From NCBI GenBank assembly GCA_028280565.1, contig JANQLQ010000203.1, forward strand, positions 1 through 54,068: DNA of 54,068 nucleotides, in the 5' to 3' direction. Positions within the stretch are counted from its first letter, which is position 1, and the number at the start of each line of letters is the position of its first letter. A program made the translations under genes and the position numbers. The notes under the pieces were generated by a model. That model worked only from the letters and a program-made list of their open reading frames with translations. It did not search any database and was not told the DNA's origin. Positions 40,166 through 53,960 of the stretch are shown piece after piece. This stretch comes from Fulvivirga sp. (GTDB lineage: Bacteria > Bacteroidota > Bacteroidia > Cytophagales > Cyclobacteriaceae).

Positions 40166-40330
40166 TTAAAAGCTGGTTTTCAATACTTTGCATGGAAGTG
40201 AAGTATCCTAGGTGGGTTGATTAACCCAAAACTCATGTTATTTTACACATCGAGGATAAGGCTGGCGATCAGCCGGTCATGGAAAACTTTAACGAGTAAT
40301 AAACTTTTTATAGTGTTATTCGTTTTGGTG

Positions 40331-40343
40331 ATAGTATTACTAT
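40331..40343. promoter_or_regulatory. Palindrome ATAGTAnTACTAT (site 1, icd)
   Basis: ATAGTATTACTAT is a perfect 6-1-6 inverted repeat that ends 20 bases before the icd ATG. The same sequence, with the centre base complementary, occurs at 43097 and 48253, and a one-mismatch copy at 47162. Probable binding site of a dimeric regulator. Confidence 0.7.
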
Positions 40344-40363
40344 TACAAAACGACGTAAAGCAT

Positions 40364-41881
40364 ATGAAAAGTTTGTCACTTGAGGCTAATGATTTTGATT
40401 TAAATGAAGAGAAAGCCGTAAAGATCGCGGTGGCGAAGGGAGATGGCATTGGACCCGACATTGTGGATGCCACATTGAACATACTCAGTGCGGCAGGTGC
40501 CCGGATCAAGCCTGAATTTATTGATATAGGAGAGGCAGTCTATTTATCTGGCAACACCTCTGGGATAGCGCCGGAAGCGTGGGACGTTATCCGGTCCAAC
40601 AAAGTGATCTTAAAAGGCCCGATCACTACCCCTCAAGGCAAAGGGTATAAGAGCTTGAATGTGACTTTACGTAAAACATTGGGACTTTACGCCAACGTTA
40701 GGCCTGTTATGTCCTTATCGCCTTATGTACAGACACATTACCCCGAGATGGATGTAGTGGTAATAAGGGAAAACGAAGAAGATCTTTACGCAGGAATTGA
40801 ACACAGGCAAACGCAAGATGTAGTACAGTGCCTTAAATTGATCACTCGCCCCGGGTGTGAAAGGATCGTTCGATACGCTTTTGAATATGCCAAAGCATAC
40901 GGCCGTAAGAAGGTGACCTGTATGCTGAAAGACAACATTATGAAATTGACGGATGGTCTCTTCCATAAAGTATTTGACGAGATCGGCGCAGAATACCCCG
41001 GCATAGACCGGGATGTACAGATCATCGATATAGCCACAGCTCGTTTGGCATCACGCCCGGAAGACTACGACGTTATCGTTACTTCTAACCTTTACGGGGA
41101 TATCGTGTCAGACGTGGCGGCGGAGATCGTAGGTTCCGTAGGAATGGCCGGCTCGGCCAATATCGGGATGAATGTAGCCATGTTTGAAGCCATTCACGGC
41201 TCAGCACCGGATATTGCAGGGCAGAATATTGCCAATCCCTCCGGTTTGCTGAACGCTGCCGTAATGATGCTGGCGCATGTAGGACAGCAAGACGTAGCGG
41301 ACAAAGTGAAAAATGCGTGGTTATCTACCATTGAGCATGGTATGCACACTGCGGATATATTTAAACAAGGAAGAAGCGCCAAAAAGGTCTCTACCGATGA
41401 ATTTGCCCAAGAAGTGATCTCAAGGCTAGGCTCAGTACCCGGTAACTTAAAAGAGAGCGCGTTGGTGAAAGGAAGCGGTAAGATCCAAATCCCTGAATTT
41501 TCAAGGAAACCGGAAGCAAAGGAGCTAGTTGGGGTAGACGTTTTCTTGGACTGGCCGGGAAATGACGCTAACCAGTTAGGCAATGCTTTGAGTGCACTGG
41601 AGATCTTTAAAATGAAACTAAAGATGATCACGAATAGGGGAGTAAAAGTATATCCTGATGGAATGCCGGAAACCTTTTGCACTGATCACTGGAGATGTAG
41701 GTTTGTGTCTGACCAAAGCCAATACGGACCTAATGTAGAACGAAAGTACGAGCCCGTGGACTATGAGCAAGTAGTGGCCTTATTGTCCAAGCTTCATTCA
41801 GAAGGGTTTGAAGTGATCAAAACGGAAAATCTTTATTCCTTTGGCGGCCAGATCGGCTTCTCCCTGGGCCAAGGTGAGTAA
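40364..41881 (+). CDS. icd: Isocitrate dehydrogenase, long Thermus-type
   Basis: Oxidative decarboxylation of isocitrate to 2-oxoglutarate in the TCA cycle. The ATG at 40364 gives 505 residues starting just before the first strand KIAVAKGDGIGPDIVDA. Substrate-binding residues are in LNVTLRKTLGLYANVRP, and metal and active-site residues are in VIRENEEDLYAGIEHRQT, CMLKDNIMK and SNLYGDIVSD. The cofactor loop is EAIHGSAPDIAGQNIANPSG. The C-terminal extension of about 140 residues (with GVKVYPDG and FSLGQGE) is absent from the 416-residue E. coli enzyme but present in the Thermus-type enzyme. NADP is likely but not certain. A conserved palindrome lies 20 bases before the start. Confidence 0.93.
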   Translation: MKSLSLEANDFDLNEEKAVKIAVAKGDGIGPDIVDATLNILSAAGARIKPEFIDIGEAVYLSGNTSGIAPEAWDVIRSNKVILKGPITTPQGKGYKSLNVTLRKTLGLYANVRPVMSLSPYVQTHYPEMDVVVIRENEEDLYAGIEHRQTQDVVQCLKLITRPGCERIVRYAFEYAKAYGRKKVTCMLKDNIMKLTDGLFHKVFDEIGAEYPGIDRDVQIIDIATARLASRPEDYDVIVTSNLYGDIVSDVAAEIVGSVGMAGSANIGMNVAMFEAIHGSAPDIAGQNIANPSGLLNAAVMMLAHVGQQDVADKVKNAWLSTIEHGMHTADIFKQGRSAKKVSTDEFAQEVISRLGSVPGNLKESALVKGSGKIQIPEFSRKPEAKELVGVDVFLDWPGNDANQLGNALSALEIFKMKLKMITNRGVKVYPDGMPETFCTDHWRCRFVSDQSQYGPNVERKYEPVDYEQVVALLSKLHSEGFEVIKTENLYSFGGQIGFSLGQGE

Positions 41882-41945
41882 ATAAAACGATGTTCTTCAA
41901 GAGTGTAGGGTAAAGTTCTATCTTCACGCTCCGTAGATGGCAGGT

Positions 41946-41987
41946 CTGCCCGCCAAGATCATGATGTAAACATATACTGGTGGGCAG
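41946..41987 (+). promoter_or_regulatory. Upstream hairpin in the icd-yitT gap
   Basis: CTGCCCGCCA (41946-41955) pairs with TGGTGGGCAG (41978-41987) through ten positions, one of them G-U. It precedes the terminator-like hairpin at 42045 in the same leader, so the two could form part of an attenuation device, or may simply be an intergenic repeat end. Confidence 0.4.
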
Positions 41988-42044
41988 GTTTAGACCCCAA
42001 GGTTGTCCAAGCCTTCGGAGGCAGTTTTCCAGCTAAGAATACAT

Positions 42045-42069
42045 ACCAGGTCAAGGGCCTGGTTTTTTT
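42045..42069 (+). terminator. Terminator-like hairpin ending 3 bases before yitT
   Basis: ACCAGG (42045-42050) pairs with CCTGGT (42058-42063), followed by a run of seven T (42063-42069). The ATG of the next gene is at 42073. It could end the icd transcript, yet it also occupies the ribosome-binding region of yitT. Transcription of yitT must therefore either read through it or start within a few bases of the ATG. Confidence 0.65.
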
Positions 42070-42072
42070 GAT

Positions 42073-42954
42073 ATGAGCGAGATCAACAAAACCGCATTTT
42101 TCAAGCGAAGCACCATAGAAGCGCTGTGGATCGTAGCTGGAATTTTTTCAGCCGGCTTTGGACTCAAAGGCTTCTTGCTCCCTAATAGCTTCATCGATGG
42201 AGGGGCTACCGGGATCTCACTTTTAATAGCGGAAACTACGATCTTGGATATTTCCTATGTCATACTCCTTGTGAATGTGCCTTTCATTATTGTAGGCTAT
42301 CTCCAGATGAGCCGAAAGTTTGTTTTCAAAACGGCACTGGCTGTAGTGGCTTTAGCAGTGGTGCTGGCCCTGTTAGATTTTCCTATTATCACGGAAGATC
42401 GGCTGCTGGCATCAGTATTTGGAGGGTTTTTCTTGGGGGCAGGTATTGGGCTTAGTGTGCGTGGAGGGTGTGTCATAGACGGTACGGAGATACTGGCCTT
42501 GTATTTCAGCAGGAGACTAAACATTTCTATGGGCGATATTATCATCCTGATCAACGTCCTTATTTTTAGCATATCTGCTTGGTTGCTGGGTATTGAATCA
42601 GCCCTATATTCTATGCTCGCCTATTTTGTGGCTTCAAAAACCATGGATTTTATTATCCAAGGCATCGAGGAATACCTGGGGCTCACCATCATTTCCAAAC
42701 GCAGTGAAGAGATCAAAGAGTTGATCATTGAAGAGATGAATACCGGTGTCACTGTCTTGAACGGACAAGGAGGCTATGACCGGGAAGGCAGCGAATCTAA
42801 AAAAATAGATGTACTTTATACCGTCGTGACCCGGCTGGAGTTATTGAAGGTAAACCGTATCGTGGATGATACCGATCCCAACGCGTTTTTAGTGATCCAT
42901 GGAGTCAGAGATGTGAAAGGAGGGATGTTGAAGAGGAGAAAGGTGCCGCATTGA
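42073..42954 (+). CDS. YitT-family membrane protein (DUF161/DUF2179)
   Basis: Inner-membrane protein of 293 residues. The N-terminal part has about five hydrophobic helices and the family pattern FGLKGFLLPNSFIDGGATGI (about residues 28-47). The C-terminal soluble DUF2179 domain (from about residue 205) has NTGVTVLNGQGGYDREGSE and a final FLVIHGVRDVKGGMLKRRK. The transported substrate is unknown for most members. The start at 42073 is supported by the family N-terminus, although it lies directly after a terminator-like hairpin. Confidence 0.93.
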   Translation: MSEINKTAFFKRSTIEALWIVAGIFSAGFGLKGFLLPNSFIDGGATGISLLIAETTILDISYVILLVNVPFIIVGYLQMSRKFVFKTALAVVALAVVLALLDFPIITEDRLLASVFGGFFLGAGIGLSVRGGCVIDGTEILALYFSRRLNISMGDIIILINVLIFSISAWLLGIESALYSMLAYFVASKTMDFIIQGIEEYLGLTIISKRSEEIKELIIEEMNTGVTVLNGQGGYDREGSESKKIDVLYTVVTRLELLKVNRIVDDTDPNAFLVIHGVRDVKGGMLKRRKVPH

Positions 42955-43096
42955 CGCTTTACAGGCCATAAAGTCCTTGGCGTATTCAGCAGTGTGCCCC
43001 CTGGTATTCCGTTTTTGTATTGCTTACGGAAAGTTAACATTCCCTTAAAAAAAAGAAAGATATTCCATAACCTTTAAGGTGGACTTCTCGTTTATA

Positions 43097-43109
43097 ATAG
43101 TAATACTAT
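43097..43109. promoter_or_regulatory. Palindrome ATAGTAnTACTAT (site 2, TPR-prohibitin-LRR operon)
   Basis: ATAGTAATACTAT, perfect 6-1-6 inverted repeat, ends 14 bases before the ATG at 43124. Same site as at 40331 (icd), 47162 (sbtA/uspA) and 48253 (tetR). Confidence 0.7.
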
Positions 43110-43123
43110 TAAATAGCATAGTT

Positions 43124-43492
43124 ATGCATTTAAGAATATACATATTGCTATTTTTGTGGATCCCCCTTTCAGTAAGTTATGGGTACCACAGGCCGGAAAA
43201 CGACCTGGTACGGGTCGGAAAATCATTCATGACCCGTTATGATTTCGCACAGGCAGTTTTCTTTTTCACACGTGCGATAGAGGAAAACCCCAACTTGGCA
43301 GAAGCCTATGTATACCGGGCACATGCTTACCTTGTTTTGAATAAGTACCAGGAGGCCGTAGACGATTACCAGGTTGCCTTGGAGCTTGACCCTGCATTTG
43401 TCGAAAAATTTGTAGATAGTAAAAAAGAAAGTATTCATACCGGCTCCTATCTACCATCTCCCGGTAGCCTACCCGATGAGACGATCGAATAG
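43124..43492 (+). CDS. Small exported TPR protein
   Basis: The ATG at 43124 gives 122 residues with a signal peptide ending near SVSYGYH. The mature part holds two tetratricopeptide repeats: YDFAQAVFFFTRAIEENPN and AEAYVYRAHAYLVLNKYQEA, ending in VALELDPAF. A short Ser/Pro-rich tail follows. It probably binds another protein in the periplasm. An upstream GTG (43079) would add 15 residues but would place the conserved palindrome inside the coding region. It is the first gene of a likely four-gene operon; the prohibitin gene starts 25 bases after its stop. Confidence 0.78.
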   Translation: MHLRIYILLFLWIPLSVSYGYHRPENDLVRVGKSFMTRYDFAQAVFFFTRAIEENPNLAEAYVYRAHAYLVLNKYQEAVDDYQVALELDPAFVEKFVDSKKESIHTGSYLPSPGSLPDETIE

Positions 43493-43517
43493 AAGTTTCA
43501 CCTTAAATTATAATGCT

Positions 43518-44303
43518 ATGTCTAGATCAATATATATCTTGCTACTGGTGACGTTTGTGACTTTTAGCAGTTGTACAGTAGTGAGGCAAGGGGAAGTAGG
43601 CGTAAAACGAAAACTTGGTAAACTCGATGATAAAACCTTGGGCCCCGGTGCAGTGGGATTCAATCCCATGATCACCCGGGTGATCAAACTTCCCATACGC
43701 ACGGTCAACTTGGAGATTGCCTCAGACCTTCCTTCTAAAGAAGGTTTGAACGTAGCCGCTAATATTTCTATACTTTATCGTATCAAGCCGGAGTATGCTT
43801 CTGATATTATAGAGTCCATCGGTACTAATTACGAGCAAGTGGTCATTACTAGTGTATTCCGTTCCGCATCGGCAGACGTCTGTTCACGCTTTTTTGCTAA
43901 AGACATGCATACTGCCCAGAGGAGCCATATCGAAAAAGAGATCACAAAACATATGTCCGATCTCTTGGGTGACCGTGGGTTTGAAATAGAGGCCGTTCTA
44001 CTCAAGACCATACAACTACCGGCCGGGTTAGCGAGAGCCGTAGAAGAAAAGCTCGAAGCGGAACAGGATGCACAACGAATGGAGTTTTTATTGCAGCGCG
44101 AAAAGCTGGAAGCCCAGCGTAAATTAGTAGAGGCACAAGGTACCCGTGATGCCCAGAAGGTAATTTCCGAAGGCTTAAACCCGGAAATATTGCAATGGCA
44201 AACCATCGAGGCCTTTAAAGAGCTTTCTACTTCCCCCAACTCAAAGGTGATCATCACCAATGGCAATACTCCTTTATTAATGAATGAAATTGAGGGCAAT
44301 TAA
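43518..44303 (+). CDS. Prohibitin/SPFH-domain lipoprotein
   Basis: Member of the SPFH (stomatin/prohibitin/flotillin) superfamily, 261 residues from the ATG at 43518. The N-terminal hydrophobic segment ends in TFSSC, a possible lipobox. The SPFH domain starts VRQGEVGVKRKLGKL and includes SKEGLNVAANISILYRIKP and YEQVVITSVFRSASADVCSRF. A coiled coil follows (EEKLEAEQDAQRMEFLLQRE, then AQRKLVEAQGTRDAQ), and the C-terminus has the usual WQTIEAFKEL. These proteins form membrane scaffolds. A lipid anchor instead of a transmembrane helix is somewhat unusual and uncertain. Confidence 0.9.
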   Translation: MSRSIYILLLVTFVTFSSCTVVRQGEVGVKRKLGKLDDKTLGPGAVGFNPMITRVIKLPIRTVNLEIASDLPSKEGLNVAANISILYRIKPEYASDIIESIGTNYEQVVITSVFRSASADVCSRFFAKDMHTAQRSHIEKEITKHMSDLLGDRGFEIEAVLLKTIQLPAGLARAVEEKLEAEQDAQRMEFLLQREKLEAQRKLVEAQGTRDAQKVISEGLNPEILQWQTIEAFKELSTSPNSKVIITNGNTPLLMNEIEGN

Positions 44304-44334
44304 CAAGGTGCCCGGGACGTTACGAGTTTAGGAA

Positions 44335-44562
44335 ATGGTCTGGATAGTAATGGGTGATGATCCCTGGCCTGACAAGTACATACCCGTGCTTGCCAGGCCA
44401 AAATCAGAATTAACTGGGCTTAAAAAGGATAAGACAGCAGTGAAAATTTTTGACAATGAAACTGACGCACTTCTTCATGCTGAACAATTGAAAGTAAAGT
44501 ATGGCGCTAAAGCAGTGCGTATGTTTTATCCCGATGGTTTTTCCAAAATAATTACCCCATGA
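44335..44562 (+). CDS. Small hypothetical protein
   Basis: No family recognised. The 75 residues are soluble and mixed alpha/beta in pattern (VWIVMGDDPWPDKYIPVLAR, then DNETDALLHAEQLKVKYG and AVRMFYPDGFSKII). It lies 31 bases after the prohibitin gene and overlaps the next gene by 4 bases (ATGA), which supports it as a real operon member. It has no signal peptide, unlike its neighbours. Confidence 0.65.
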   Translation: MVWIVMGDDPWPDKYIPVLARPKSELTGLKKDKTAVKIFDNETDALLHAEQLKVKYGAKAVRMFYPDGFSKIITP

Positions 44563-45455
44563 ACGAAAAAGAAACAGTAAAATTCACCCCTCACTACCTA
44601 CCCGGTTTTGTGTTTTGCATACTTTTTGTCTTAGGCTATGTAAAAAGTGACGCCCAAGATATCCCTAACCGGTATGATGACCTGGAAAAGGCCAAGGCCT
44701 CACCTAGTGATGTGCGATGGCTGGAATTAAAGGATAAAGGCTATAAAGAATTCCCAAAGGATATCTTCCAGTTCACTAACCTTGAGTTCCTGGACCTATC
44801 CGGGAACCAAATAAAAACGGTGCCCGGGGAAATCGACCAACTCATTCGCCTGAAGTACCTAGACCTTTCCGGAAACAAGATCAAAAGGCTACCGGGTTCC
44901 ATGGCGGACTTAGATTCTTTGAATACCTTACACTTGGCTTATTTACCCGGTGTGGACCTAGCGCAGGTGCTCCCGATCATTAGCCAAATCAGTGGGTTGC
45001 GCGTGTTGGACTTGAAATATAACAATATTGAGACTATTCCAGGTTCCATCCGCTATTTTGGGCAGTTAGAACGATTGGACCTTTCCGGTAACCCGATACG
45101 TGTGCTCCCGGAAGAGCTTGCCTACCTGGACCGGTTGAAGATCTTTTACTTGAACGATGACCGCGAGTTTAACTTAGAGCAGAGTTTGGATGTTTTGGCG
45201 GGGATCGATCAACTGCAAGAACTTCATTTAGAAAACGATGATATACAGGTCATTCCCGAAAATATTACCCGGATGAAAAGCTTGGAGTACCTTTACATCA
45301 ATGAGAACCGGTTAAACCAGCTACCGGCAGGAATCAGGACCATGCCCAGCTTGAAATATATCGATGTGTATGATAACCCCATTCCTAATGTGTTTTTGGA
45401 TGAGTACAGGAGGTACCTTGCACCTTCTATTAAGATCAATATTGGCAATAAGTAA
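44559..45455 (+). CDS. Leucine-rich-repeat protein
   Basis: 298 residues. A hydrophobic segment at about 15-30 (FVFCILFVLGYVKSDAQ) suggests export. About nine leucine-rich repeats follow, of the type LxxLDLSGNxIxxLPxxI, for example LEFLDLSGNQIKTVPGEI, LKYLDLSGNKIKRLPGSM and LRVLDLKYNNIETIPGSI. They form a curved protein-binding surface of the kind found in many Bacteroidota surface or periplasmic proteins. It is translationally coupled (4-base overlap) to the preceding small gene and is the last gene of the operon. Confidence 0.88.
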   Translation: MNEKETVKFTPHYLPGFVFCILFVLGYVKSDAQDIPNRYDDLEKAKASPSDVRWLELKDKGYKEFPKDIFQFTNLEFLDLSGNQIKTVPGEIDQLIRLKYLDLSGNKIKRLPGSMADLDSLNTLHLAYLPGVDLAQVLPIISQISGLRVLDLKYNNIETIPGSIRYFGQLERLDLSGNPIRVLPEELAYLDRLKIFYLNDDREFNLEQSLDVLAGIDQLQELHLENDDIQVIPENITRMKSLEYLYINENRLNQLPAGIRTMPSLKYIDVYDNPIPNVFLDEYRRYLAPSIKINIGNK

Positions 45456-45460
45456 TGCCA

Positions 45461-45620
45461 TAACCTCGGGTCGATTTAAAATCATTGTAGCCTAGGCGTA
45501 AAATGAGGTTTTGAATACTTTCACGGTCTTTAAACTGGGGATCAGCTTCCCTCCCCGGCAAAGCAGGTCCCGGCTCTCCCAATAGCCTTGTTACCACCGG
45601 CCCGGAATGACGAATTTTTT
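45461..45620 (+). repeat. Dispersed repeat R4, copy B
   Basis: Matches 20772-20940 in the same orientation, including TCGATTTAAAATCATTGTAG, GTCTTTAAACTGGGGA and CCGGAATGACG near the end. It begins just after the LRR gene stop codon. Confidence 0.8.
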
Positions 45621-45668
45621 TTAGTGGTTGGTTTTACAAGGGGAAGTTTTCCGTCTTGATCACAGTGT

Positions 45669-45748
45669 GTATTGGATACCCGCATTACAAATGCTGGCGT
45701 TAGTGCCTTGTAGTACTCAATGGGTTCGCGTTGCAAATGCGAACCAGT
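45669..45748 (+). repeat. Dispersed repeat R3, copy B
   Basis: Matches 24006-24090 (GGATACCCGCATTACAAAT, TGGCGT, AGTGCC, GGGTTCGCGTTGCAAA). Its end forms a hairpin, GGTTCGC / GCGAACC with a 9-base loop, like REP elements. Confidence 0.75.
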
Positions 45749-45827
45749 AAAAAAAACGCGAACCAGTTTAAGGGGAAATGAGGTGAGTTTATTCCGAGGT
45801 TTTAGTTTTCAAGAAAACGATGCATGA

Positions 45828-46121
45828 TCAGTGTACTAGCCACTGTGCGTCACTTACCAGGCAGACCCCCCCGGATTTTTTCAGCACTTTCCTTAGAGGC
45901 TCTTTGATCTTTTCGAGTTCTTCTTGTGAGCATGCTACGATGAGATAAGTATTTTTGAAAGCGTTGTGCAGCCCCTCGCCATCTTGGATGCCTTTATCTC
46001 CGCTGCCTTGGACGTCTTTGATCATGGTGTAACCATTGACTTGGTGTTCTTCCAAGATATGGATCACCTTTGGGGTTTCCAAAGCGCCCGTAACAATTTC
46101 CACACGTTTTAGATCTTTCAT
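45828..46121 (-). CDS. sbtB: PII-like SbtB-type regulatory protein
   Basis: 97-residue PII-fold protein. It has strands and helices in the PII order (KRVEIVTGALETPKVIHILE, then the T-loop region YTMIKDVQGSGDKG, then NTYLIVACSQEELEKIKEPL and SGGVCLVSDAQWL). It is encoded 7 bases downstream of the bicarbonate transporter gene, as SbtB is in cyanobacteria. There it binds adenine nucleotides and inhibits SbtA. The Cys pair at the C-terminus of some cyanobacterial SbtB proteins is absent. The functional assignment rests on fold pattern plus context. Confidence 0.82.
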   Translation of the reverse strand: MKDLKRVEIVTGALETPKVIHILEEHQVNGYTMIKDVQGSGDKGIQDGEGLHNAFKNTYLIVACSQEELEKIKEPLRKVLKKSGGVCLVSDAQWLVH

Positions 46122-46128
46122 TGCTCAA

Positions 46129-47103
46129 TTAATTTAACCATTCAAGAATATGATAGTAAACCGGTATTCCTATAATTATATTCATTGGGAACGTGATCGC
46201 CAGTGACATAGGTACATACAAACCGGGATTAGCTTCCGGTACGGTCAAGCGTATGGCCGCAGGTACAGCTATGTAAGAGGCGCTTGCAAATAAAACGACC
46301 AGCAGCAAAGAATCCCCTACATTAATGTTGAACATAGAACACAACGCAATACCGAGCGCGGCATTCAATAAGGGAATGAAGATGCTAAAAGCAATAAGAA
46401 ATGTACCCGCATTTTTTAAGGACTGTATCCTTCGCCCTGCTAGCAGTCCCATATCTAAGAGGAAGAATGCCAGCATTCCCTTGAAGATATGGTCGGTAAA
46501 CGGGGCCAAGGCCACGGCCGTTCTTTCCCCACCTAAGATGCCAATGACCAAACTTCCAAGAATGAGCACCACTGATCCGTTAGTCAGCGCTTCTTTGAGT
46601 ATATCTTTATAGCTTCCATTACGTCCGTTGTTGTTTTTATCTTCACGGTAAAGGTTGATCAGCAGTACCCCAATGATAATGGCCGGCGATTCCATCAATG
46701 CCATAGCCGCCACCATATGCCCGCCATACGCAACGTCGAGATCTTTTAAGAAAGCCGTGGCTGTAATGAATGTCACAGCGCTGATCGATCCGTACGTGGC
46801 GGCTATAGCGCCGGCATCGTAAATATTCACCTTCTTTTTTAAGACGTAGAAAGTATAAAATGGGACAACAATAGACATTAGCATGGCCAATCCCAAAGAA
46901 GTGATCACCTCTGGTGTGATCCCGCTATGGGCTAGCTCCACACCTCCTTTTATACCGATTGATAAGAGTAAATAAAGAGATAAGAACTTAGGTATCGGCT
47001 GGGGGATCTCCAAGTCGGATTTTATGAAAACACAGATGAGGCCGAGAAAGAAAAAAAGGACAGCGGGATTTAGTAGGTTGTGTAGAATTGCTTCTATACT
47101 CAT
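46129..47103 (-). CDS. sbtA: SbtA-type sodium-dependent bicarbonate transporter
   Basis: Inner-membrane permease of the SbtA family, importing bicarbonate with Na+. I chose the ATG at 47103 (324 residues), which gives the typical start MSIEAILHNLLNPAVLFFFLG. About ten hydrophobic helices are visible in two inverted halves; the signature stretches are SIGIKGGVELAHSG, DAGAIAATYGSISAVTFITA, GGHMVAAMALMESPAIIIG in the first half and LLDMGLLAGRR and SASYIAVPAAIRL in the second. The PII-like sbtB follows at once. It shares an 82-base divergent promoter region, with the conserved palindrome, with the universal stress gene. In a heterotroph it probably supplies bicarbonate to carboxylases. Confidence 0.92.
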   Translation of the reverse strand: MSIEAILHNLLNPAVLFFFLGLICVFIKSDLEIPQPIPKFLSLYLLLSIGIKGGVELAHSGITPEVITSLGLAMLMSIVVPFYTFYVLKKKVNIYDAGAIAATYGSISAVTFITATAFLKDLDVAYGGHMVAAMALMESPAIIIGVLLINLYREDKNNNGRNGSYKDILKEALTNGSVVLILGSLVIGILGGERTAVALAPFTDHIFKGMLAFFLLDMGLLAGRRIQSLKNAGTFLIAFSIFIPLLNAALGIALCSMFNINVGDSLLLVVLFASASYIAVPAAIRLTVPEANPGLYVPMSLAITFPMNIIIGIPVYYHILEWLN

Positions 47104-47130
47104 AAATTTTTCGTTAGTCGCGGAACATCG

Positions 47131-47138
47131 CAAAGATA
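47131..47138 (-). promoter_or_regulatory. Candidate -7 element for sbtA
   Basis: On the minus strand this reads TATCTTTG, a perfect TAnnTTTG match, 28 bases before the sbtA ATG. If it is used, the palindrome at 47162-47174 is centred near -41, where activators commonly bind. No clear -33 TTG was found. Confidence 0.45.
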
Positions 47139-47161
47139 TGATTGTTTTTCTACCTAAAATT

Positions 47162-47174
47162 ATAGCAATACTAT
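47162..47174. promoter_or_regulatory. Palindrome ATAGTAnTACTAT (site 3, sbtA/uspA, one mismatch)
   Basis: ATAGCAATACTAT differs from the perfect palindrome at one position. It lies in the divergent promoter region, 11 bases before the uspA ATG and 58 bases before the sbtA start. Confidence 0.6.
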
Positions 47175-47185
47175 TATTTTTGTAT

Positions 47186-48133
47186 ATGGAGTTTTTCAAG
47201 GTCTGGGTCGTAGGGCTCGATATGTCCCCTACAGATAGTTTTGTTTTAAGAAATGTAGCGCAGCTAGCTCGTAATTTCAGACCGGATAATATCCATTTTG
47301 TTCACGTAGCGCCAGAACCCGATATCCCCGATGAAGTTTTGAAAGATATCCCGGATCTGCAGGTTCCGGAGTTGGCGTACTACAAATCAAAAGTCCAAAA
47401 ATATGTAGATGAGAATTTTGATGCGGCTTCAAGCATTGAAATACATATCAAAGAAGGTAATGCACTTACCGAGTTACTCCGGGTATGTGATCAGCTCACC
47501 AGTGATTTACTGATCGTTGGGGAAAAAGGCAGCAAAAGCCCGGGCAGGGTGGCCCGAAAGATCGTGAGAAAATCACCTTGCAGCGTCCTTTTGGTACCTG
47601 AACTGTTTGAAAAGAGTATTGACTCTATCCTCGTTCCTACTGACTTCTCCGATTACTCCGAGAAAGCATTAAAAATGGGAGAGACTATTGCCGAGCAATA
47701 TGATGGATGCAAAGTCAATGTGTTGCATGTCTACAAAGATGCTTCAAAATACCTAAGCCAAGTATTTGAAACGGTGCATGAGATCGATGAGATCCTGCTG
47801 AAGCGAAAGACGATTAATGAAAAGCTGACCTCGTACGCTAAGCATAAATTAGAAGAATACCTGCATCAATTTCAACATGAAAAATTAGTGATAACCCCCC
47901 ATATTAAAAGTATCGAAAGAGGGGAAGAGATCAGCAACGCCATTGAAGATTGGATCGAGGTCTACTCCCCCGGGATAGTGATCATCGGGGCCAAGGGGCA
48001 ATCCGCCCCAGCGGCGGCTTTGCTGGGTAGGGTATCTGAGCAAGTGTACTCGAAATGTAACGACCATCTCATGCTGATTATCAAGCGAAAAAATGAAAAT
48101 AGTAGCCTTCTGAAAGTGTTGTTAGGTTCATAA
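47186..48133 (+). CDS. Tandem universal stress protein
   Basis: The ATG at 47186 (315 residues) opens the first USP strand FKVWVVGLDMSPTDSFVLRN. Two USP domains are present. The first (about 1-145) ends in the nucleotide-loop region VGEKGSKSPGRVARKIVRKSPCSVLLVP. The second (about 150-300) begins SILVPTDFSDYSEKALKMG and ends with IIGAKGQSAPAAALLGRVSE, SEQVYSKCNDHLMLII. The Gly-x2-Gly-x9-Gly ATP-binding pattern is roughly kept in both. Upstream ATG or GTG codons would extend the frame into sbtA and are rejected. It is divergent from sbtA, with a shared palindrome, so the two may respond to the same signal. Confidence 0.92.
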   Translation: MEFFKVWVVGLDMSPTDSFVLRNVAQLARNFRPDNIHFVHVAPEPDIPDEVLKDIPDLQVPELAYYKSKVQKYVDENFDAASSIEIHIKEGNALTELLRVCDQLTSDLLIVGEKGSKSPGRVARKIVRKSPCSVLLVPELFEKSIDSILVPTDFSDYSEKALKMGETIAEQYDGCKVNVLHVYKDASKYLSQVFETVHEIDEILLKRKTINEKLTSYAKHKLEEYLHQFQHEKLVITPHIKSIERGEEISNAIEDWIEVYSPGIVIIGAKGQSAPAAALLGRVSEQVYSKCNDHLMLIIKRKNENSSLLKVLLGS

Positions 48134-48252
48134 AAGAGGGTCGCATGACCCTAGCTATGGCCTCGTGAGTATCTTTGAACAAAGATGACCAAATAAATAC
48201 GCTATTCACTAAACTTTTCCCAACCATCTTCGTTATTAGAATATCATAATTG

Positions 48253-48265
48253 ATAGTAATACTAT
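48253..48265. promoter_or_regulatory. Palindrome ATAGTAnTACTAT (site 4, tetR)
   Basis: ATAGTAATACTAT, perfect inverted repeat, ends 35 bases before the ATG of the TetR-family regulator. A site before its own gene makes that regulator the first candidate for the binding protein. Confidence 0.7.
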
Positions 48266-48300: not shown

Positions 48301-48978
48301 ATGGCAACTTTACAGCTGTTGATGAACGAGAATTTGTTCATCAGGGACCCGCAGGAAACAGAATTGGGCCGGAAAATCGTGCAAGACAGTATTTGCATGA
48401 TCGATGAATTGGGTTTTGAAAAGTTTACCTTTAAAAAACTAGCGTTGAAAATTGATTCGACGGAAGCCTCTATTTATCGCTATTTTGAGAATAAACATAG
48501 GCTGCTGGTCTACCTGATTGCCTGGTACTGGAACTGGATCGAATACCGGATTGATTTCGGCACCCAAAACATAACCGATCCCGGAAAAAAATTAGCCATT
48601 GCATTACGAATCATTGCAGAAAAAAAAGGTAAGGATCCCTTCTTCCCGCAGATTGATGAGGAAGCCCTTTATCGTATCGTTATTGCCGAATCAGACAAAA
48701 CGTATTTGACCAAGCAGGTGGATGCCGATAACAAAGAGGGGCTTTTCCGTGGTTTTAAGTCACTTTGCGGAACGATAGCTTCCTTTATCCTGGAGATCAA
48801 CCCGGGTTTTGAGTATCCACATTCTTTGATCAGTACGGCATTATTAACGGCACATCAACAACTTTTCTATGCGGAACATTTACCTTCGCTGAGTAACGTA
48901 AAAAAAGTGAACGGAGATATTCACAAACAAAATGAAGATTTTCTTAATATAATGGTTTTCAATACCATCAAGGCTTAA
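48301..48978 (+). CDS. TetR/AcrR-family transcriptional regulator
   Basis: 225-residue dimeric regulator. The N-terminal HTH domain (about 20-75) shows the TetR pattern ELGFEKFTFKKLALKIDSTE followed by ASIYRYFENKHRLLVYLIAWY, where the recognition helix lies. The remaining 150 residues form a helical ligand-binding and dimerisation domain of unknown ligand. An export operon (ABC protein, HlyD, TolC) starts 25 bases downstream on the same strand, the usual layout of an efflux regulator. The palindrome 35 bases upstream suggests autoregulation. Confidence 0.92.
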   Translation: MATLQLLMNENLFIRDPQETELGRKIVQDSICMIDELGFEKFTFKKLALKIDSTEASIYRYFENKHRLLVYLIAWYWNWIEYRIDFGTQNITDPGKKLAIALRIIAEKKGKDPFFPQIDEEALYRIVIAESDKTYLTKQVDADNKEGLFRGFKSLCGTIASFILEINPGFEYPHSLISTALLTAHQQLFYAEHLPSLSNVKKVNGDIHKQNEDFLNIMVFNTIKA

Positions 48979-49003: not shown

Positions 49004-51178
49004 ATGCAAAGTAACCAGATCATACAGATCATAAGGGAATCTGCGCTTCTTTTGCAGCAGGATTTCGATGGGCTGAATCTCGCAGAAATTGATTCCTCAC
49101 CTCGCTCTTACGATGTGGATGATATCGCGGAGTTCAGGCGGGACCTTATCGAGGCTGCCAATAAGCAGCGGATCATTTACCTGGAGAATGGCCTTGAAAG
49201 GGAGGAGTTCAGGACCTTCATTAACGATATAGAAATACCGATAATTGCCTTTGAAGAAATAGAAGGAAACCGTGTACCCATCATATTTTTCAAGCAAAAA
49301 AGAAAACTGAAGGTACTCCAGGTGAGCGAGGAAAGTTCGGAAATACGAGAGTGTAGCGAGTCCTATTTCCCTAACCTGTACGAAGAAGACGGTAAGGTTT
49401 CCTTCTTAGGGGTATTCTCATACAAAAGCCTGGTCAGCGATGACCCGGAAGACGGTGAGCTCCAGAAAAAACTTAACCCGGTACAGCGTTTGATCAGGCT
49501 ACTGTCGGAGGAAAAAAAGGACATCATATATGTCTACATATACGCGATTTTGGTAGGGTTGATCGGGCTTACGCTGCCCCTAGGGATCCAGGCAACGGTC
49601 TCGCTGATCTCCGGCGGGGTGGTCTTCAGCTCCGTCTATGTTTTGATCGGCTTGGTGATCATAGGAGTGCTGGCAGCGGGTGGATTGCAAGTCATGCAAA
49701 TAACATTGGTAGAATACCTCCAAAGACGTGTATTTACCAAGGCTGCCTTTGAGTTTGCCTTCCGGGTGCCCAGGATAAAAGCTGAAGCGCTGGTACAGCA
49801 TCATGCCCCGGAATTGATGAACCGGTTTTTTGATGTACTTACGATCCAAAAGGGACTTCCTAAACTCTTGATCGATCTCTCGGCCGGCGTGATACAAATA
49901 TTCTTTGGCCTCCTTTTGTTATCGTTTTACCACCCGTTCTTCGTGTTTTTCAGTATCGTACTGGTAGGGGCACTTGTACTCATATTTTACTTCACGGGGC
50001 CTAAAGGTCTTAATTCTTCTATAAAAGAGTCGAAGTTTAAATATAAAGTGGTGTATTGGCTGGAAGAGCTGGCGCGCACGATCAATTCTTTTAAGCTATC
50101 CGGCAATACCTCATTGCCCATCAGGAAAACGGATTACAATGTCAATAACTATTTAAAGAATCGGAAGGTCCATTTCGGCATTTTGATCAGTCAGTATTCT
50201 ATCGTACTGCTCTTCAAGGCGTTAGTAACGGGCGGGTTATTGATCATCGGTACGGTGCTGGTAGTGAGCCGGGAGATCACTTTAGGACAATTTGTAGCTG
50301 CCGAGGTGATCATTATCCTCACTTTGAGCTCTGTGGAGAAGATCATTATGTACATGGATGTAGTCTATGATATGCTCACAGCGGTGGATAAAATATCGCA
50401 AGTGACCGATCTGCCATTGGAAAAAAGCGGTGGGCTGGATATCCCGAAGGCCTTATTGCACCGTGGGTTTGGTATGAATATCAAAGATCTTAAATATAAA
50501 TTTCCGGATAAGCCCTCGTACACCCTCAAAGGGATTAACCTATCCATCAAAGGAGGCGAACATATTTGTATTTCTGGTAAGGGCGGTTCTGGGAAGACGG
50601 TATTTACCAATACTATTTCAGGGCTTAACACCCATTATGAAGGTATTATCACCATGGATGGTTTCTCATTACGAGACCTTGATCTAACCAACCTTCGTGA
50701 CAAAGTAGGAAAGAATGTATCGCAGGAAGATATTTTCGCAGGAAGCATCCTCGAAAATATACTGCTGGCGAAACCTCATGCGCAACCTGCGGACGCCATC
50801 TGGGCGATCAATACAGTAGGTATCGCCGATGAGATCAATGCTATGCCCGATGGAATGGATACCGAGATGGTCAGCGGGGGAAAGGGGCTTCCGACTAGTT
50901 TAGTAAATAAGATTATTTTGGCACGTAGCCTGGCAAAACGCCCGAATCTTTTGATCTTGAATGATTTCTTTAATGACTTCATTAAAGCGGAGCGTTTTGA
51001 CCTGATCCATATGCTGACACGTAAAGAACACCCCTGGACGTTGGTCGTAGTATCTAACGATCCTGTGATCATGGCGGCATGCGACCGTGTTGTGCTTTTA
51101 GAGGATGGGCTGGTAAAAGCGGAAGGCCCGTTTGAAAATTTAGTAAAGTCTGGTGAGTTGAACAATATCATTAATTGA
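49004..51178 (+). CDS. ABC transporter with fused membrane and ATPase domains (type I secretion/peptidase-less)
   Basis: 724-residue half-transporter of the HlyB-like exporter type. The first 165 residues are a soluble domain in the position of a C39 peptidase but without a visible Cys/His catalytic pattern. The membrane domain has about five to six helices (175-440). The nucleotide-binding domain has Walker A GKGGSGKT (about 525-532), Q-loop NVSQEDIFAG and signature VSGGKG (about 622-626). Walker B reads LLILND: the expected Asp is Asn and the catalytic Glu is Asp. The H-loop region VVVSNDP lacks the switch His. ATP hydrolysis may thus be weak or rely on a partner. HlyD and TolC genes follow in the operon. 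Confidence 0.9.
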   Translation: MQSNQIIQIIRESALLLQQDFDGLNLAEIDSSPRSYDVDDIAEFRRDLIEAANKQRIIYLENGLEREEFRTFINDIEIPIIAFEEIEGNRVPIIFFKQKRKLKVLQVSEESSEIRECSESYFPNLYEEDGKVSFLGVFSYKSLVSDDPEDGELQKKLNPVQRLIRLLSEEKKDIIYVYIYAILVGLIGLTLPLGIQATVSLISGGVVFSSVYVLIGLVIIGVLAAGGLQVMQITLVEYLQRRVFTKAAFEFAFRVPRIKAEALVQHHAPELMNRFFDVLTIQKGLPKLLIDLSAGVIQIFFGLLLLSFYHPFFVFFSIVLVGALVLIFYFTGPKGLNSSIKESKFKYKVVYWLEELARTINSFKLSGNTSLPIRKTDYNVNNYLKNRKVHFGILISQYSIVLLFKALVTGGLLIIGTVLVVSREITLGQFVAAEVIIILTLSSVEKIIMYMDVVYDMLTAVDKISQVTDLPLEKSGGLDIPKALLHRGFGMNIKDLKYKFPDKPSYTLKGINLSIKGGEHICISGKGGSGKTVFTNTISGLNTHYEGIITMDGFSLRDLDLTNLRDKVGKNVSQEDIFAGSILENILLAKPHAQPADAIWAINTVGIADEINAMPDGMDTEMVSGGKGLPTSLVNKIILARSLAKRPNLLILNDFFNDFIKAERFDLIHMLTRKEHPWTLVVVSNDPVIMAACDRVVLLEDGLVKAEGPFENLVKSGELNNIIN

Positions 51179-51183
51179 GAATT

Positions 51184-52536
51184 ATGAATTCGAAAACTGA
51201 GATGACGGATACTCAATTATATACGTTAAGAACATTAAGAACCCCAAGCGCGGGTCGTAACTTGGCCCGGATACTTGTAGGGCTGGTGATCATATTTTTC
51301 ATTATACTTTTTGTGCCCTGGCAGCAAAACATACGCGGTACGGGAGAAGTGACCGCTTTTACACCGGGTAACAGGCCGCAGTCAGTGGAATCCGCCATAC
51401 CGGGCAGGATCTCGAGCTGGAGGGTGAGGGAAGGCCAATTTGTCTATTCCGGTGATACGATCCTTACATTAAGTGAGATCAAGGACGAATACTTTGATCC
51501 CAATCTTTTGTTACGGCTTCGAGAGCAGGTATCAGCGAAAGAAGGGAGTATCGTATCTAAAAGAGAGAAAGCAGACGCCCTGACTACACAGATCTCGGCA
51601 TTGAAAGATGCCTTGGCAGTGAAATACCAGCAGGCACAAAATAAAGTCACCCAAACCGAGCTTAAGCTGTCGAGTGATAGTGTGGATTTCCTAGCTGAAA
51701 AAATACGTTTCAACAACTTTGAAAACCAATATGACAGGAATAAGACCTTGTATGCAGCAGGTAATATTGCTTTGACAAAGTTCCAGGATATTGAGTCTAA
51801 ATTCCAGGAGTCACGGATGAAGGTGGTATCTTCCGAGAATACCTTTCATCAAAGCCGGGCAGAACTCGTCAATGCCCGGGTGGACCTGGCCGGTATACAA
51901 GCCGAGTACCAAGATAAGATCAGTAAAGCAGAATCTGATCTGAATGCCACGTTGGCCGATCTCTATGAAAGTCAAGCTGCGCTGGCAAAACTAAAAAATG
52001 AATTTGCCAATATGCAGATACGGAATGAGCAGTACCAACTCATCGCTCCCCAGTCGGGGTATGTGGTAAGGGCTATGCAAGCTGGGATCGGCGAGACGAT
52101 CAAAGAAGGAGAGCCGGTAGTTACCATTATGCCTTCTAATCCCGATATGGCGATTGAAATGTATGTAAAAGCCATGGATGTGCCCTTGCTCTCTAAAGGG
52201 CGAGAGGTGAGGATCGAGTTCGACGGTTGGCCTGCCTTACAGTTTTCAGGCTGGCCTAGTGTATCTGTAGGTACTTTTGGAGGTGTGGTCCAAGTCATTG
52301 ATTATGTGAACAGCACCGGGGGAGAATTCAGGATACTGGTGACCCCGGATCCTAGTGATGAACCGTGGCCGGAGCAGCTAAGGCTGGGTTCAGGTACAAA
52401 AGGCTGGGTAATGCTGGACAATGTTCCAATATGGTACGAGATATGGCGACAACTGAACGGGTTCCCGCCAAGCCTGTACGAAGAACCGTTGGATGAAAAG
52501 ATTGGTGGACCTGCAAAAGATGAAACAAAAAAATGA
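51184..52536 (+). CDS. HlyD-family membrane fusion protein
   Basis: Periplasmic adaptor of a tripartite exporter, 450 residues from the ATG at 51184 (a TTG at 51175 is less likely). A cytoplasmic N-terminus precedes one transmembrane helix (about residues 24-44, LVGLVIIFFIILFVPW). The lipoyl half-motif SAIPGRISSWRVREGQFVYS follows, then a long coiled-coil hairpin (about 110-270), the second lipoyl half (LIAPQSGYVVRAMQAGIGET), and a beta-barrel domain with VRIEFDGWPALQFSGWP. It starts 5 bases after the ABC gene and overlaps the TolC gene by 4 bases. Confidence 0.93.
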   Translation: MNSKTEMTDTQLYTLRTLRTPSAGRNLARILVGLVIIFFIILFVPWQQNIRGTGEVTAFTPGNRPQSVESAIPGRISSWRVREGQFVYSGDTILTLSEIKDEYFDPNLLLRLREQVSAKEGSIVSKREKADALTTQISALKDALAVKYQQAQNKVTQTELKLSSDSVDFLAEKIRFNNFENQYDRNKTLYAAGNIALTKFQDIESKFQESRMKVVSSENTFHQSRAELVNARVDLAGIQAEYQDKISKAESDLNATLADLYESQAALAKLKNEFANMQIRNEQYQLIAPQSGYVVRAMQAGIGETIKEGEPVVTIMPSNPDMAIEMYVKAMDVPLLSKGREVRIEFDGWPALQFSGWPSVSVGTFGGVVQVIDYVNSTGGEFRILVTPDPSDEPWPEQLRLGSGTKGWVMLDNVPIWYEIWRQLNGFPPSLYEEPLDEKIGGPAKDETKK

Positions 52537-53960
52537 AGTGGCTAGTCCTCTTAAGTATTTTTATCGTTTTTTTTCAGAAGATCCAAGCCCAGCAAGAGCC
52601 GGATACTACCACGGTCTTGGAATTTGATGAATATTACAGGCTGGTCCTGGCGAATCACCCGGTGGTCAAACAAGCGGAACTCCTTACCCAACAAGCTGCA
52701 CAGGAACTAAGACTGGCAAGGGGAGGTTTTGACCCTAAGCTGGAGGGATCCTGGAGTTTCAAGGATTTCAATGAAACAGAATATTATAATATCTTGGATG
52801 TATCCTTGAAAATCCCCGTCTGGTTCCCCATTGACCCTAAGGTAGGAGTGGAGAGAAATCGTGGAACGTATCTTAACAATGAACGTTTCATCTCCCCTAC
52901 CACAGATAATCGCCAGATCTATGCCGGTATCGCGGTGCCTATAGGTCAAGGGCTGTTTATTGATCAGCGTCGGGCTACGATGCGCCAGGCCCAACTTATG
53001 CAAGATATGGCCGAAGCTGACCAGGTAAAGGAGATCAACAAGATCTTACTCACGGCGGCCAAAGATTATTGGGAATGGTACTTTGCCTACAACAATTATG
53101 TGTTAATGCAGCGAAGCATCACCATAGCCCAGGATATCTATGACCGAACTAAAATGGCTTTTGAATATGGGGAAGCGGCTGCTATGGATACCGTGCAGGC
53201 CAAGATCACGTTACTCCAGCGTGTTACAGCCTTCCAGGAAGCAAACATAGAGCGCATAAAAGCATCCCTGAGATTGTCACTTAACTTATGGGACCCTAAT
53301 GGTGCCCCGCTTGACCTGGAGGATAATGTGCGCCCGGAGGATATGGATTTTTCAGCGTTTAATCGCGATCTTTTGGATCAGCTGGTAGAAATGGCGCGGC
53401 AAAATCATCCCGAAATCCTAAAATTGGATCTAAAGAACAGGTCCTTATTAGTGGAACGGGACCTGGCCCGGGAAAACTTAAAACCCAGGCTGGATGTAAA
53501 CTACTTTTTACTTGACCAGCCTATTAGCCCGGGCGGAGAGCAAAACGGGATTGCCGTTGGTGATAACTACAAAGTGGGCGTCGATTTCGCCTTCCCCATC
53601 TTCCTCAGGAAAGAGCGCGCCAAGCTGAACCAGACCCGGTTAAAACTGACGGATAACCGTTTCCAGCGAGATTTTGTAGAGCGGGAGATCATCAACGATA
53701 TCAATGGGCAGTTCAATGCCGTACTTACGACCGAGATCATCATGGCCCAACAAGAAGAAATGGTCAATAACTACGAGGTGATCCTGCAAGCGGAACAACT
53801 TAACTTGGAAAACGGCGAAAGTGACCTGTTCGAGATCAATGTTCAAATTGAAAAATTGATTGATTCCCAGTCTAAGTTGCTAAAGCTACGATCAGACTAC
53901 CAGAAGAATATCATGAATCTTTACTGGGCCGCCGGTATCACAAACTTAGGTCTTCAATAG
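52533..53960 (+). CDS. TolC-like outer-membrane efflux protein
   Basis: Outer-membrane channel of the export system, 475 residues. The signal peptide ends near KIQAQ (residue 19). Two structural repeats of the outer-membrane efflux protein family follow: the first begins FDEYYRLVLANHPVVKQAEL, with long helices around RRATMRQAQLMQDMAEADQV. The second begins DQLVEMARQNHPEILKLDLK and includes EIINDINGQFNAVLTTE. The start overlaps the HlyD stop by 4 bases. With the ABC and HlyD genes it completes a one-operon tripartite exporter, probably under the TetR-like regulator upstream. Confidence 0.93.
   Translation: MKWLVLLSIFIVFFQKIQAQQEPDTTTVLEFDEYYRLVLANHPVVKQAELLTQQAAQELRLARGGFDPKLEGSWSFKDFNETEYYNILDVSLKIPVWFPIDPKVGVERNRGTYLNNERFISPTTDNRQIYAGIAVPIGQGLFIDQRRATMRQAQLMQDMAEADQVKEINKILLTAAKDYWEWYFAYNNYVLMQRSITIAQDIYDRTKMAFEYGEAAAMDTVQAKITLLQRVTAFQEANIERIKASLRLSLNLWDPNGAPLDLEDNVRPEDMDFSAFNRDLLDQLVEMARQNHPEILKLDLKNRSLLVERDLARENLKPRLDVNYFLLDQPISPGGEQNGIAVGDNYKVGVDFAFPIFLRKERAKLNQTRLKLTDNRFQRDFVEREIINDINGQFNAVLTTEIIMAQQEEMVNNYEVILQAEQLNLENGESDLFEINVQIEKLIDSQSKLLKLRSDYQKNIMNLYWAAGITNLGLQ

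Follow-up and report, generated by a model that had tools for sequence, protein, structure and literature searches.

The window analysed here is a stretch of 54,068 nucleotides from Fulvivirga sp. (assembly GCA_028280565.1, contig JANQLQ010000203.1), in which a 13-base palindrome, ATAGTAnTACTAT, stands ahead of several genes, among them one for a TetR-family regulator (48301..48978, plus strand; hereafter the 48301 protein). Exact copies are found at 40331-40343, 43097-43109 and 48253-48265, and a copy with a single mismatch, ATAGCAATACTAT, at 47162-47174. A first-pass annotation of the same DNA had proposed that these sites mark a local regulon; its four positions are present as given, its distances of 20, 14, 35 and 11 bases to the start codons (for the three exact sites in order and then the mismatched one) agree with the sequence, and its gene names hold, with matches to Iso_dh, TPR, Band_7, LRR, Sbt_1, Usp, TetR_N and ABC transporter families.

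The first exact site (operator 1) precedes icd, the gene for isocitrate dehydrogenase (40364..41881, plus strand; Pfam Iso_dh, 1.3e-95), and the second (operator 2) precedes a row of three plus-strand genes encoding a TPR protein (43124..43492; domain search), an SPFH/Band 7 protein (43518..44303; Pfam Band_7, 2.3e-27) and a leucine-rich-repeat (LRR) protein (44559..45455; domain search). Between icd and the TPR gene is a gene for a YitT-family membrane protein (42073..42954, plus strand), which has no site directly before it in the window and keeps its place in two related genomes, G009 and G090. Operator 3, the copy with one mismatch, lies in a divergent region. On one side, on the minus strand, are sbtA (46129..47103; Pfam Sbt_1, 1.6e-119; PDB SbtA 7cye, 1.6e-27), whose product belongs to the Na+-dependent bicarbonate transporter family and is predicted to act in transport, and downstream of it a gene for a PII-like protein (45828..46121; Pfam P-II, 9.4e-13); on the other, on the plus strand, is the universal stress protein gene, usp (47186..48133; Pfam Usp, 1.4e-31). 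The last exact site, operator 4, precedes tetR itself and is conserved before tetR relatives, and behind tetR, on the same strand, lie the genes of an exporter operon: an ABC transporter (49004..51178), an HlyD-type adaptor (51184..52536) and a TolC/OEP-type outer membrane protein (52533..53960), all assigned by domain search.

The genome from which the window comes (G000; 9,052,587 bases in 337 contigs) holds just five exact copies of ATAGTAnTACTAT and one of the reversed control pattern. Three of the five fall inside 8 kb of the window; were five sites placed at random, any three would lie within 7.9 kb with a chance of ~2e-5, so that the rarity and clustering claimed in the first-pass annotation stand. 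The other two exact copies are at C56:7797 and C192:21852. The former is 149 bases before the gene for an 82-residue helix-turn-helix (HTH) protein, for which the family search returned no family above its cut-off; behind it on the same strand are genes for a DUF2490 protein and then a 250-residue beta-carbonic anhydrase (PDB carbonic anhydrase 2a5v, 2.6e-27), the row occupying L234:5825-7647. In G090 a carbonic anhydrase gene lies directly behind the equivalent HTH gene. The site on C192 is 19 bases before a gene for an extracytoplasmic function (ECF) sigma factor, and the adjoining next gene is CutA1-like (the pair spans L005:621-1481). The sbtA gene of the window is likewise trailed by a PII-like gene, and PII-like and CutA1-like proteins are of related fold.

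Genus g10, a different genus from that of the window, keeps many of these sites in place. In G009, a member of g10, exact sites at C112:136758, 139334, 143386 and 144463 precede icd (79% identity), the TPR-SPFH-LRR row, sbtA/usp and an ECF sigma gene, with spacings of 2576, 4052 and 1077 bases that nearly equal the 2766, 4065 and 1091 bases of the window. The fourth of these sites precedes the orthologue of the ECF gene on C192, not tetR, and the third backs the mismatched operator 3 with an exact site at the orthologous place. Two further sites are seen in G009, one inside a coding frame (L048) and one before another universal stress protein gene (L047). In G090, also of g10, exact sites precede icd, the TPR gene, its own tetR, its own ABC gene and the HTH gene with carbonic anhydrase behind; operators 1 and 2 thus both have orthologous exact sites in the two genomes (loci L046 and L050). 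The scan of this and related genomes that the first-pass annotation had proposed therefore yields five exact sites in the genome and sites kept in place in g10, and the return of the site ahead of the icd, TPR-SPFH and sbtA/usp orthologues bears out its claim of a regulon. Genome counts and conservation in place together rule out chance or a scattered repeat as the source of the palindrome. In the window genome and g10, the regulon would now comprise icd, TPR-SPFH, usp/sbtA and carbonic anhydrase, with the ECF sigma gene added in G000 and G009.

To ask which protein goes with the site, we fetched TetR relatives regardless of whether they had one and sought the best match to the palindrome within 250 bases upstream, with mononucleotide shuffles as the null both here and for the AAC/CGT layout in G000, G009 and G090 described below. 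The window's family was represented by 70 TetR loci, comprising the 30 best matches and 40 hand-picked from the list and hence not a random draw; exact sites were found at 27, one-mismatch sites at 23, two-mismatch sites at 7 and worse at 13, where shuffles gave 0 exact, 0.32 one-mismatch and 3.02 two-mismatch sites. Among named Bacteroidota we took the best 80 of 460 TetR loci and counted 79 (L232, with only 20 bases upstream, was omitted), and the corresponding numbers were 23, 18, 13 and 25, with 0.02, 0.30 and 3.66 in shuffles. A site with at most one mismatch is therefore present upstream of 50/70 family and 41/79 named TetR genes, where 0.32 is expected in each set. In the related-genome search, a gene for an orthologue of the 48301 protein (44-73% identity) lies behind the site at 12 exact-site loci in addition to the window.

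The pairing is also seen when the site is taken as the starting point. The fuller form of the operator is TRATAGTAnTACTATYA, 17 bases, and the 295 other genomes in a sample of the phylum contain it, as TRATAGTAWTACTATYA, 17 times and the control twice. With one locus returned per genome (which left out the second sites of G365 and G477 and three further 17-base sites in G000), 13 of 15 loci hold the TetR gene, 12 of them directly behind the site, and two hold none. Across the family sample, 158 genomes have the TetR and hold 172 exact sites (control, 157); the 38 that lack it hold 15 (control, 42; p 3e-4). From these comparisons the 48301 protein very probably has the palindrome as its operator, as the first-pass annotation had suggested; the word 'local', though, is too narrow, the site-TetR pairing recurring across Bacteroidota. 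One contig carrying the TetR, SulP and carbonic anhydrase genes and an exact site (L211) is labelled Methyloglobulus, a gammaproteobacterial name, which suggests wrong binning or transfer.

By family and fold, the 48301 protein is a member of the TetR/AcrR family. TetR_N (PF00440) scores 25.1 bits (cut-off 24), the AlphaFold2 model (predicted local distance difference test, pLDDT, 92.8) is a confident two-domain, all-helical TetR fold, the Foldseek matches listed for it are mostly TetR-family proteins, and a palindromic site lies near its own promoter. The family search gave no more specific name: every NCBIfam equivalog stayed below its cut-off, the KstR, FadR and SlmA models giving 20-25 bits against cut-offs of 120-280. 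Residues E55, Y59, R60, Y61, F62 and K65, around the recognition helix, are invariant in 43 sequences, and this near-invariance of the recognition region, like that of the site, argues against the idea that a different regulator binds the palindrome and also controls tetR. The candidates for such a regulator would be the small HTH protein (L001), whose own gene follows a site in G000 and G090, or a TetR paralogue, some genomes holding two or three TetR relatives. Over the phylum, however, TetR is the most regular gene behind the site (the 13 of 15 loci above) and the HTH protein was not seen there, and we consider a different binder improbable.

The sites also have a characteristic promoter context, which the first-pass annotation overlooked: an ECF-type promoter element lies upstream of most sites in G000. 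ECF sigma factors recognize promoters of the form GGAAC-N16/17-CGTC. CGT is also present in an ECF-type -10 region described in one study (PMC9723704). In G000, AAC-N16-CGT precedes the sites of icd (40302..40323, plus strand; AAC 40302-40304, CGT 40321-40323), tetR (48212..48233, plus strand; AAC 48212-48214, CGT 48231-48233), the carbonic anhydrase set and the ECF gene, and an N17 variant precedes that of the TPR gene (43069..43091, plus strand; AAC 43069-43071, CGT 43089-43091), for a total of 5 of 6 sites. The layout is alike before icd in G009 and G090 and is present overall at 4 of 6 sites in G009 (leaving aside the site in a coding frame) and 4 of 5 in G090. Among 32 non-tetR sites, hand-chosen because a gene follows, and including orthologous promoters of G000, G009 and G090 with the sbtA/usp site counted twice, 16 have the pair at N16, one at N17 and none at any other spacing from 8 to 20; in this set AAC-N16-CGT ranks first when all 4096 triplet pairs are compared at 18 spacers. 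After removal of identical stretches, since some genomes are in both the family and named sets, 86 tetR sites remained, and a scan of these in which only 16 second triplets were tried found AAC/CGT at N16 in 32 and at N17 in 5. Half of the examined non-tetR sites (16/32) and 32/86 tetR sites thus follow the ECF-type promoter form AAC-N16-CGT, which is new here.

At tetR, CGT begins 4-9 or 22-27 bases ahead of the palindrome, which therefore covers or follows the expected transcription start. A second layout, likewise new, was found at 15 of the 86 tetR sites, where the sigma-A box TAnnTTTG starts at the base right after the palindrome; it was seen at none of 19 other offsets examined and at 1 in 1462 background upstream positions. 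The box occupies -12 to -5 in Flavobacterium psychrophilum (PMC9723704), and an abutting palindrome would on that basis fill -25 to -13. Forty-two of the 86 sites fit neither strict promoter form. In the window, a box of the same type, TATTTTTG, abuts operator 3 on the usp side (47175..47182, plus strand) and is not kept in G009, and the putative -7 box of sbtA, TATCTTTG (47131..47138, minus strand), lies 23 bases past the operator; because of this distance usp is the better target, and of the divergent sbtA/uspA pair named in the first-pass annotation the usp half stands while sbtA is the weaker member.

Either layout is compatible with a repressor that blocks RNA polymerase, and it is from them that we infer repression. 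One could instead suppose that the palindrome is part of the promoter or of a 5' leader RNA, as its confinement to a narrow range of positions close to the start of transcription and ahead of the start codon would allow. Such an element would have to serve with two promoter types, at several distances from CGT (-4 to -27) and in shared divergent regions, and the palindrome is symmetrical with a central base that is A or T equally often; we find this less probable still than a different binding protein.

The first-pass annotation had suggested a response linked to CO2 or bicarbonate, and the wider neighbourhood of the TetR gene extends that theme. In the 80 named TetR loci, with neighbour families checked by Pfam on representatives, we counted abc (34), hlyD (34), tolC (30), SulP (23), carbonic anhydrase (15) and DUF2490 (8), with icd (6), sbtA (6), SPFH (5), ECF (5) and purK (5) as rarer neighbours. 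SulP or beta-carbonic anhydrase is present in 24 of the 80, and any of SulP, carbonic anhydrase, sbtA or icd in 32. Within 1.5 kb, SulP is found in 19-20 loci and abc in 31, and a rough background of 28 loci around another gene (98 kb) has none of these genes. Commonly, a DUF2490-carbonic anhydrase-SulP row and tetR diverge around the site (e.g., L200, L216); in a second layout, SulP, carbonic anhydrase and tetR follow behind it (L188, L202). The best site at 23 SulP/carbonic anhydrase operon heads is exact in 6, has one mismatch in 6 and two in 6, and is worse in 5. SulP and beta-carbonic anhydrase genes at TetR loci, with operon heads that often bear what would be the operator, are likewise new here, and together with the carbonic anhydrase set behind a further exact site of G000 they support the CO2/bicarbonate theme. 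In the family, the site also precedes SulP in G139, bestrophin in G041, G109 and G144 and YitT in G060, and the exporter carries its own site where tetR lies elsewhere (L023, L049, L052, L269, L270, L271). A LysR gene is found in 4 of the 80 named loci and is not the site's regular partner. The nearest solved structures to SulP are 5da0 (5.8e-23) and 6ki1 (1e-21), the latter of which we take to be BicA, and the SulP genes adjoin carbonic anhydrase genes. In L194, L196, L201, L209 and L214, tetR is adjoined by purK, sometimes with purE (a bicarbonate-using purine step).

Taken together, these observations lead us to propose, with a probability of about 0.8, that the 48301 protein represses its own gene together with an inorganic-carbon regulon and an ABC-HlyD-TolC exporter, acting through this operator and released by a metabolite. 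The proposal rests on comparison: the site, its conservation, and its pairing with TetR and with two promoter types. Physical binding, repression as opposed to activation, the signal and the CO2/HCO3- role are what we infer from it. A TetR dimer would bind the 17-base operator at or just past the start of AAC-N16-CGT promoters or, alternatively, would occupy the spacer that adjoins the sigma-A -7 box (TAnnTTTG) on its upstream side, in either case blocking transcription, including that of its own gene. A metabolite tied to inorganic-carbon supply would release it, allowing SbtA with its PII-like partner, carbonic anhydrase and, in other Bacteroidota, SulP permease to be made, along with icd, the universal stress protein, the TPR-SPFH-LRR set, the ECF sigma factor and the exporter. 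The operator appears to be ancient and nearly invariant, with targets that would vary by lineage around two cores, the exporter and inorganic-carbon uptake and hydration.

Several counts weigh against this reading. In the whole genome, one mismatch allowed, the palindrome is found at 29 places and the control at 48, so a lone one-mismatch site carries no weight and only exact or orthologously placed sites count. With up to three mismatches the window shows no enrichment (29 found, 24.15 expected), and a degenerate-pattern search of G000 gave 27 for each; as the control is as frequent or more so in such searches, target prediction across the genome was kept to exact sites. In each of the other four genomes examined in the window's genus there are just 1 or 2 exact sites, and the window's set is not kept. 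No site within one mismatch was found at 20/70 family and 38/79 named TetR loci, some of the site-less TetR genes being paralogues or second genes of operons. The whole family sample shows no excess of exact sites (187, control 199), so the signal comes from where the sites lie. Many of 40 further exact-site loci lie before unrelated genes or in coding frames, and genus g71 has many sites before unrelated genes, with some exact sites inside coding sequence. At g71 loci L240, L253, L249 and L250, a gene for a 150-residue secreted acidic protein follows exact sites, two of which have AAC-N16-CGT, and other exact sites are near an acetyltransferase-like gene.

It may be that operator and TetR are correctly paired and the signal is another one, such as an exported compound, a lipid or acyl-CoA, or envelope or energy stress, the carbon genes being passengers of a wider stress response. 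The exporter genes are the commonest neighbours in the named loci (34/80), and in the window's family, too, the commonest partner is the exporter, usually its abc gene, and not a carbon gene; stress responses typically include usp, SPFH and ECF sigma genes; and the closest folds, those of the TetR proteins AibR, FadR and KstR2, with acyl-CoA ligands in several of the structure titles, do not point to bicarbonate. A further point against the carbon role is that the SulP permeases may transport sulfate or some other anion. The fold matches are, however, weak (template modelling, TM, scores of about 0.5-0.65), and as a guide to the ligand they gave a weak hint at acyl-CoA binders only. SulP, carbonic anhydrase, SbtA and bestrophin, moreover, are unrelated families that share HCO3-/CO2 handling, and each is found behind the site. 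We therefore regard a different signal as unlikely, while giving it an appreciable share of the probability.

A stronger version of the carbon proposal would make the TetR a Bacteroidota-wide inorganic-carbon sensor-repressor. It would respond to bicarbonate, CO2 or a metabolite from a carboxylase that uses bicarbonate, and would control an ECF-sigma regulon by way of operators over ECF start sites, that of the ECF gene included, thereby doing as a one-component repressor what an anti-sigma factor usually does. We offer this tentatively and think it doubtful. The site-bearing gene for the candidate ECF sigma factor was found only in G000 and G009 (2 of 30 loci examined), and G090 has ECF-type promoters alike and no such ECF orthologue at E 1e-40. 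A widespread ECF relative (~45% identity) was considered as a target and rejected, 28 of 28 loci being without a site. In the Saprospiraceae loci L179, L195 and L206, an ECF sigma gene is directly before tetR; behind tetR, L179 and L195 have an SPFH gene and L206 a partial SPFH match.

Heterotrophic Bacteroidota need bicarbonate for carboxylations and carry transporters and carbonic anhydrases for its supply. In the literature searched, with subscription journals and preprints outside its scope, we found no regulator of bicarbonate supply in Bacteroidota and no account of this site or this TetR. If the proposal is true, it would reveal an undescribed CO2 response in bacteria living on organic food, and the pair of regulator and operator, which can be read from the sequence in Cytophagales, Saprospirales, Chitinophagales and Flavobacteriales, would yield a bicarbonate-supply regulator with testable targets. 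It would also provide an example of a repressor that controls ECF-type promoters at the start site.

The system resembles autoregulated repressors of the TetR, QacR and AcrR type in its HTH domain above the Pfam cut-off, its predicted all-helical fold and a palindromic site before its own gene and the adjoining exporter operon; unlike these, its regulon would be scattered and would take in genes for carbon transport, carbonic anhydrase, icd and a sigma factor, and many of its sites are paired with ECF-type promoters. AibR, FadR and KstR2 provide the nearest Foldseek folds, and AibR is nearest by sequence as well (E 1e-4), although the best-ranked of these acyl-CoA-binding proteins share only 12-16% identity, have unrelated targets, and belong to families whose NCBIfam cut-offs (KstR, FadR) are far off. 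As in ECF sigma-factor regulons, AAC-N16-CGT lies upstream of many sites and an ECF gene is among the predicted targets, whereas the putative TetR operator covers the start site or sits just beyond it and the neighbour of the ECF gene is CutA1-like. In cyanobacteria, inorganic carbon is under the control of the LysR-family regulators CcmR/NdhR and CmpR. The targets proposed here similarly include bicarbonate transporters of the SbtA and SulP/BicA families, but the regulator would be a TetR protein with another DNA site, in heterotrophic hosts without a known CO2-concentrating mechanism.

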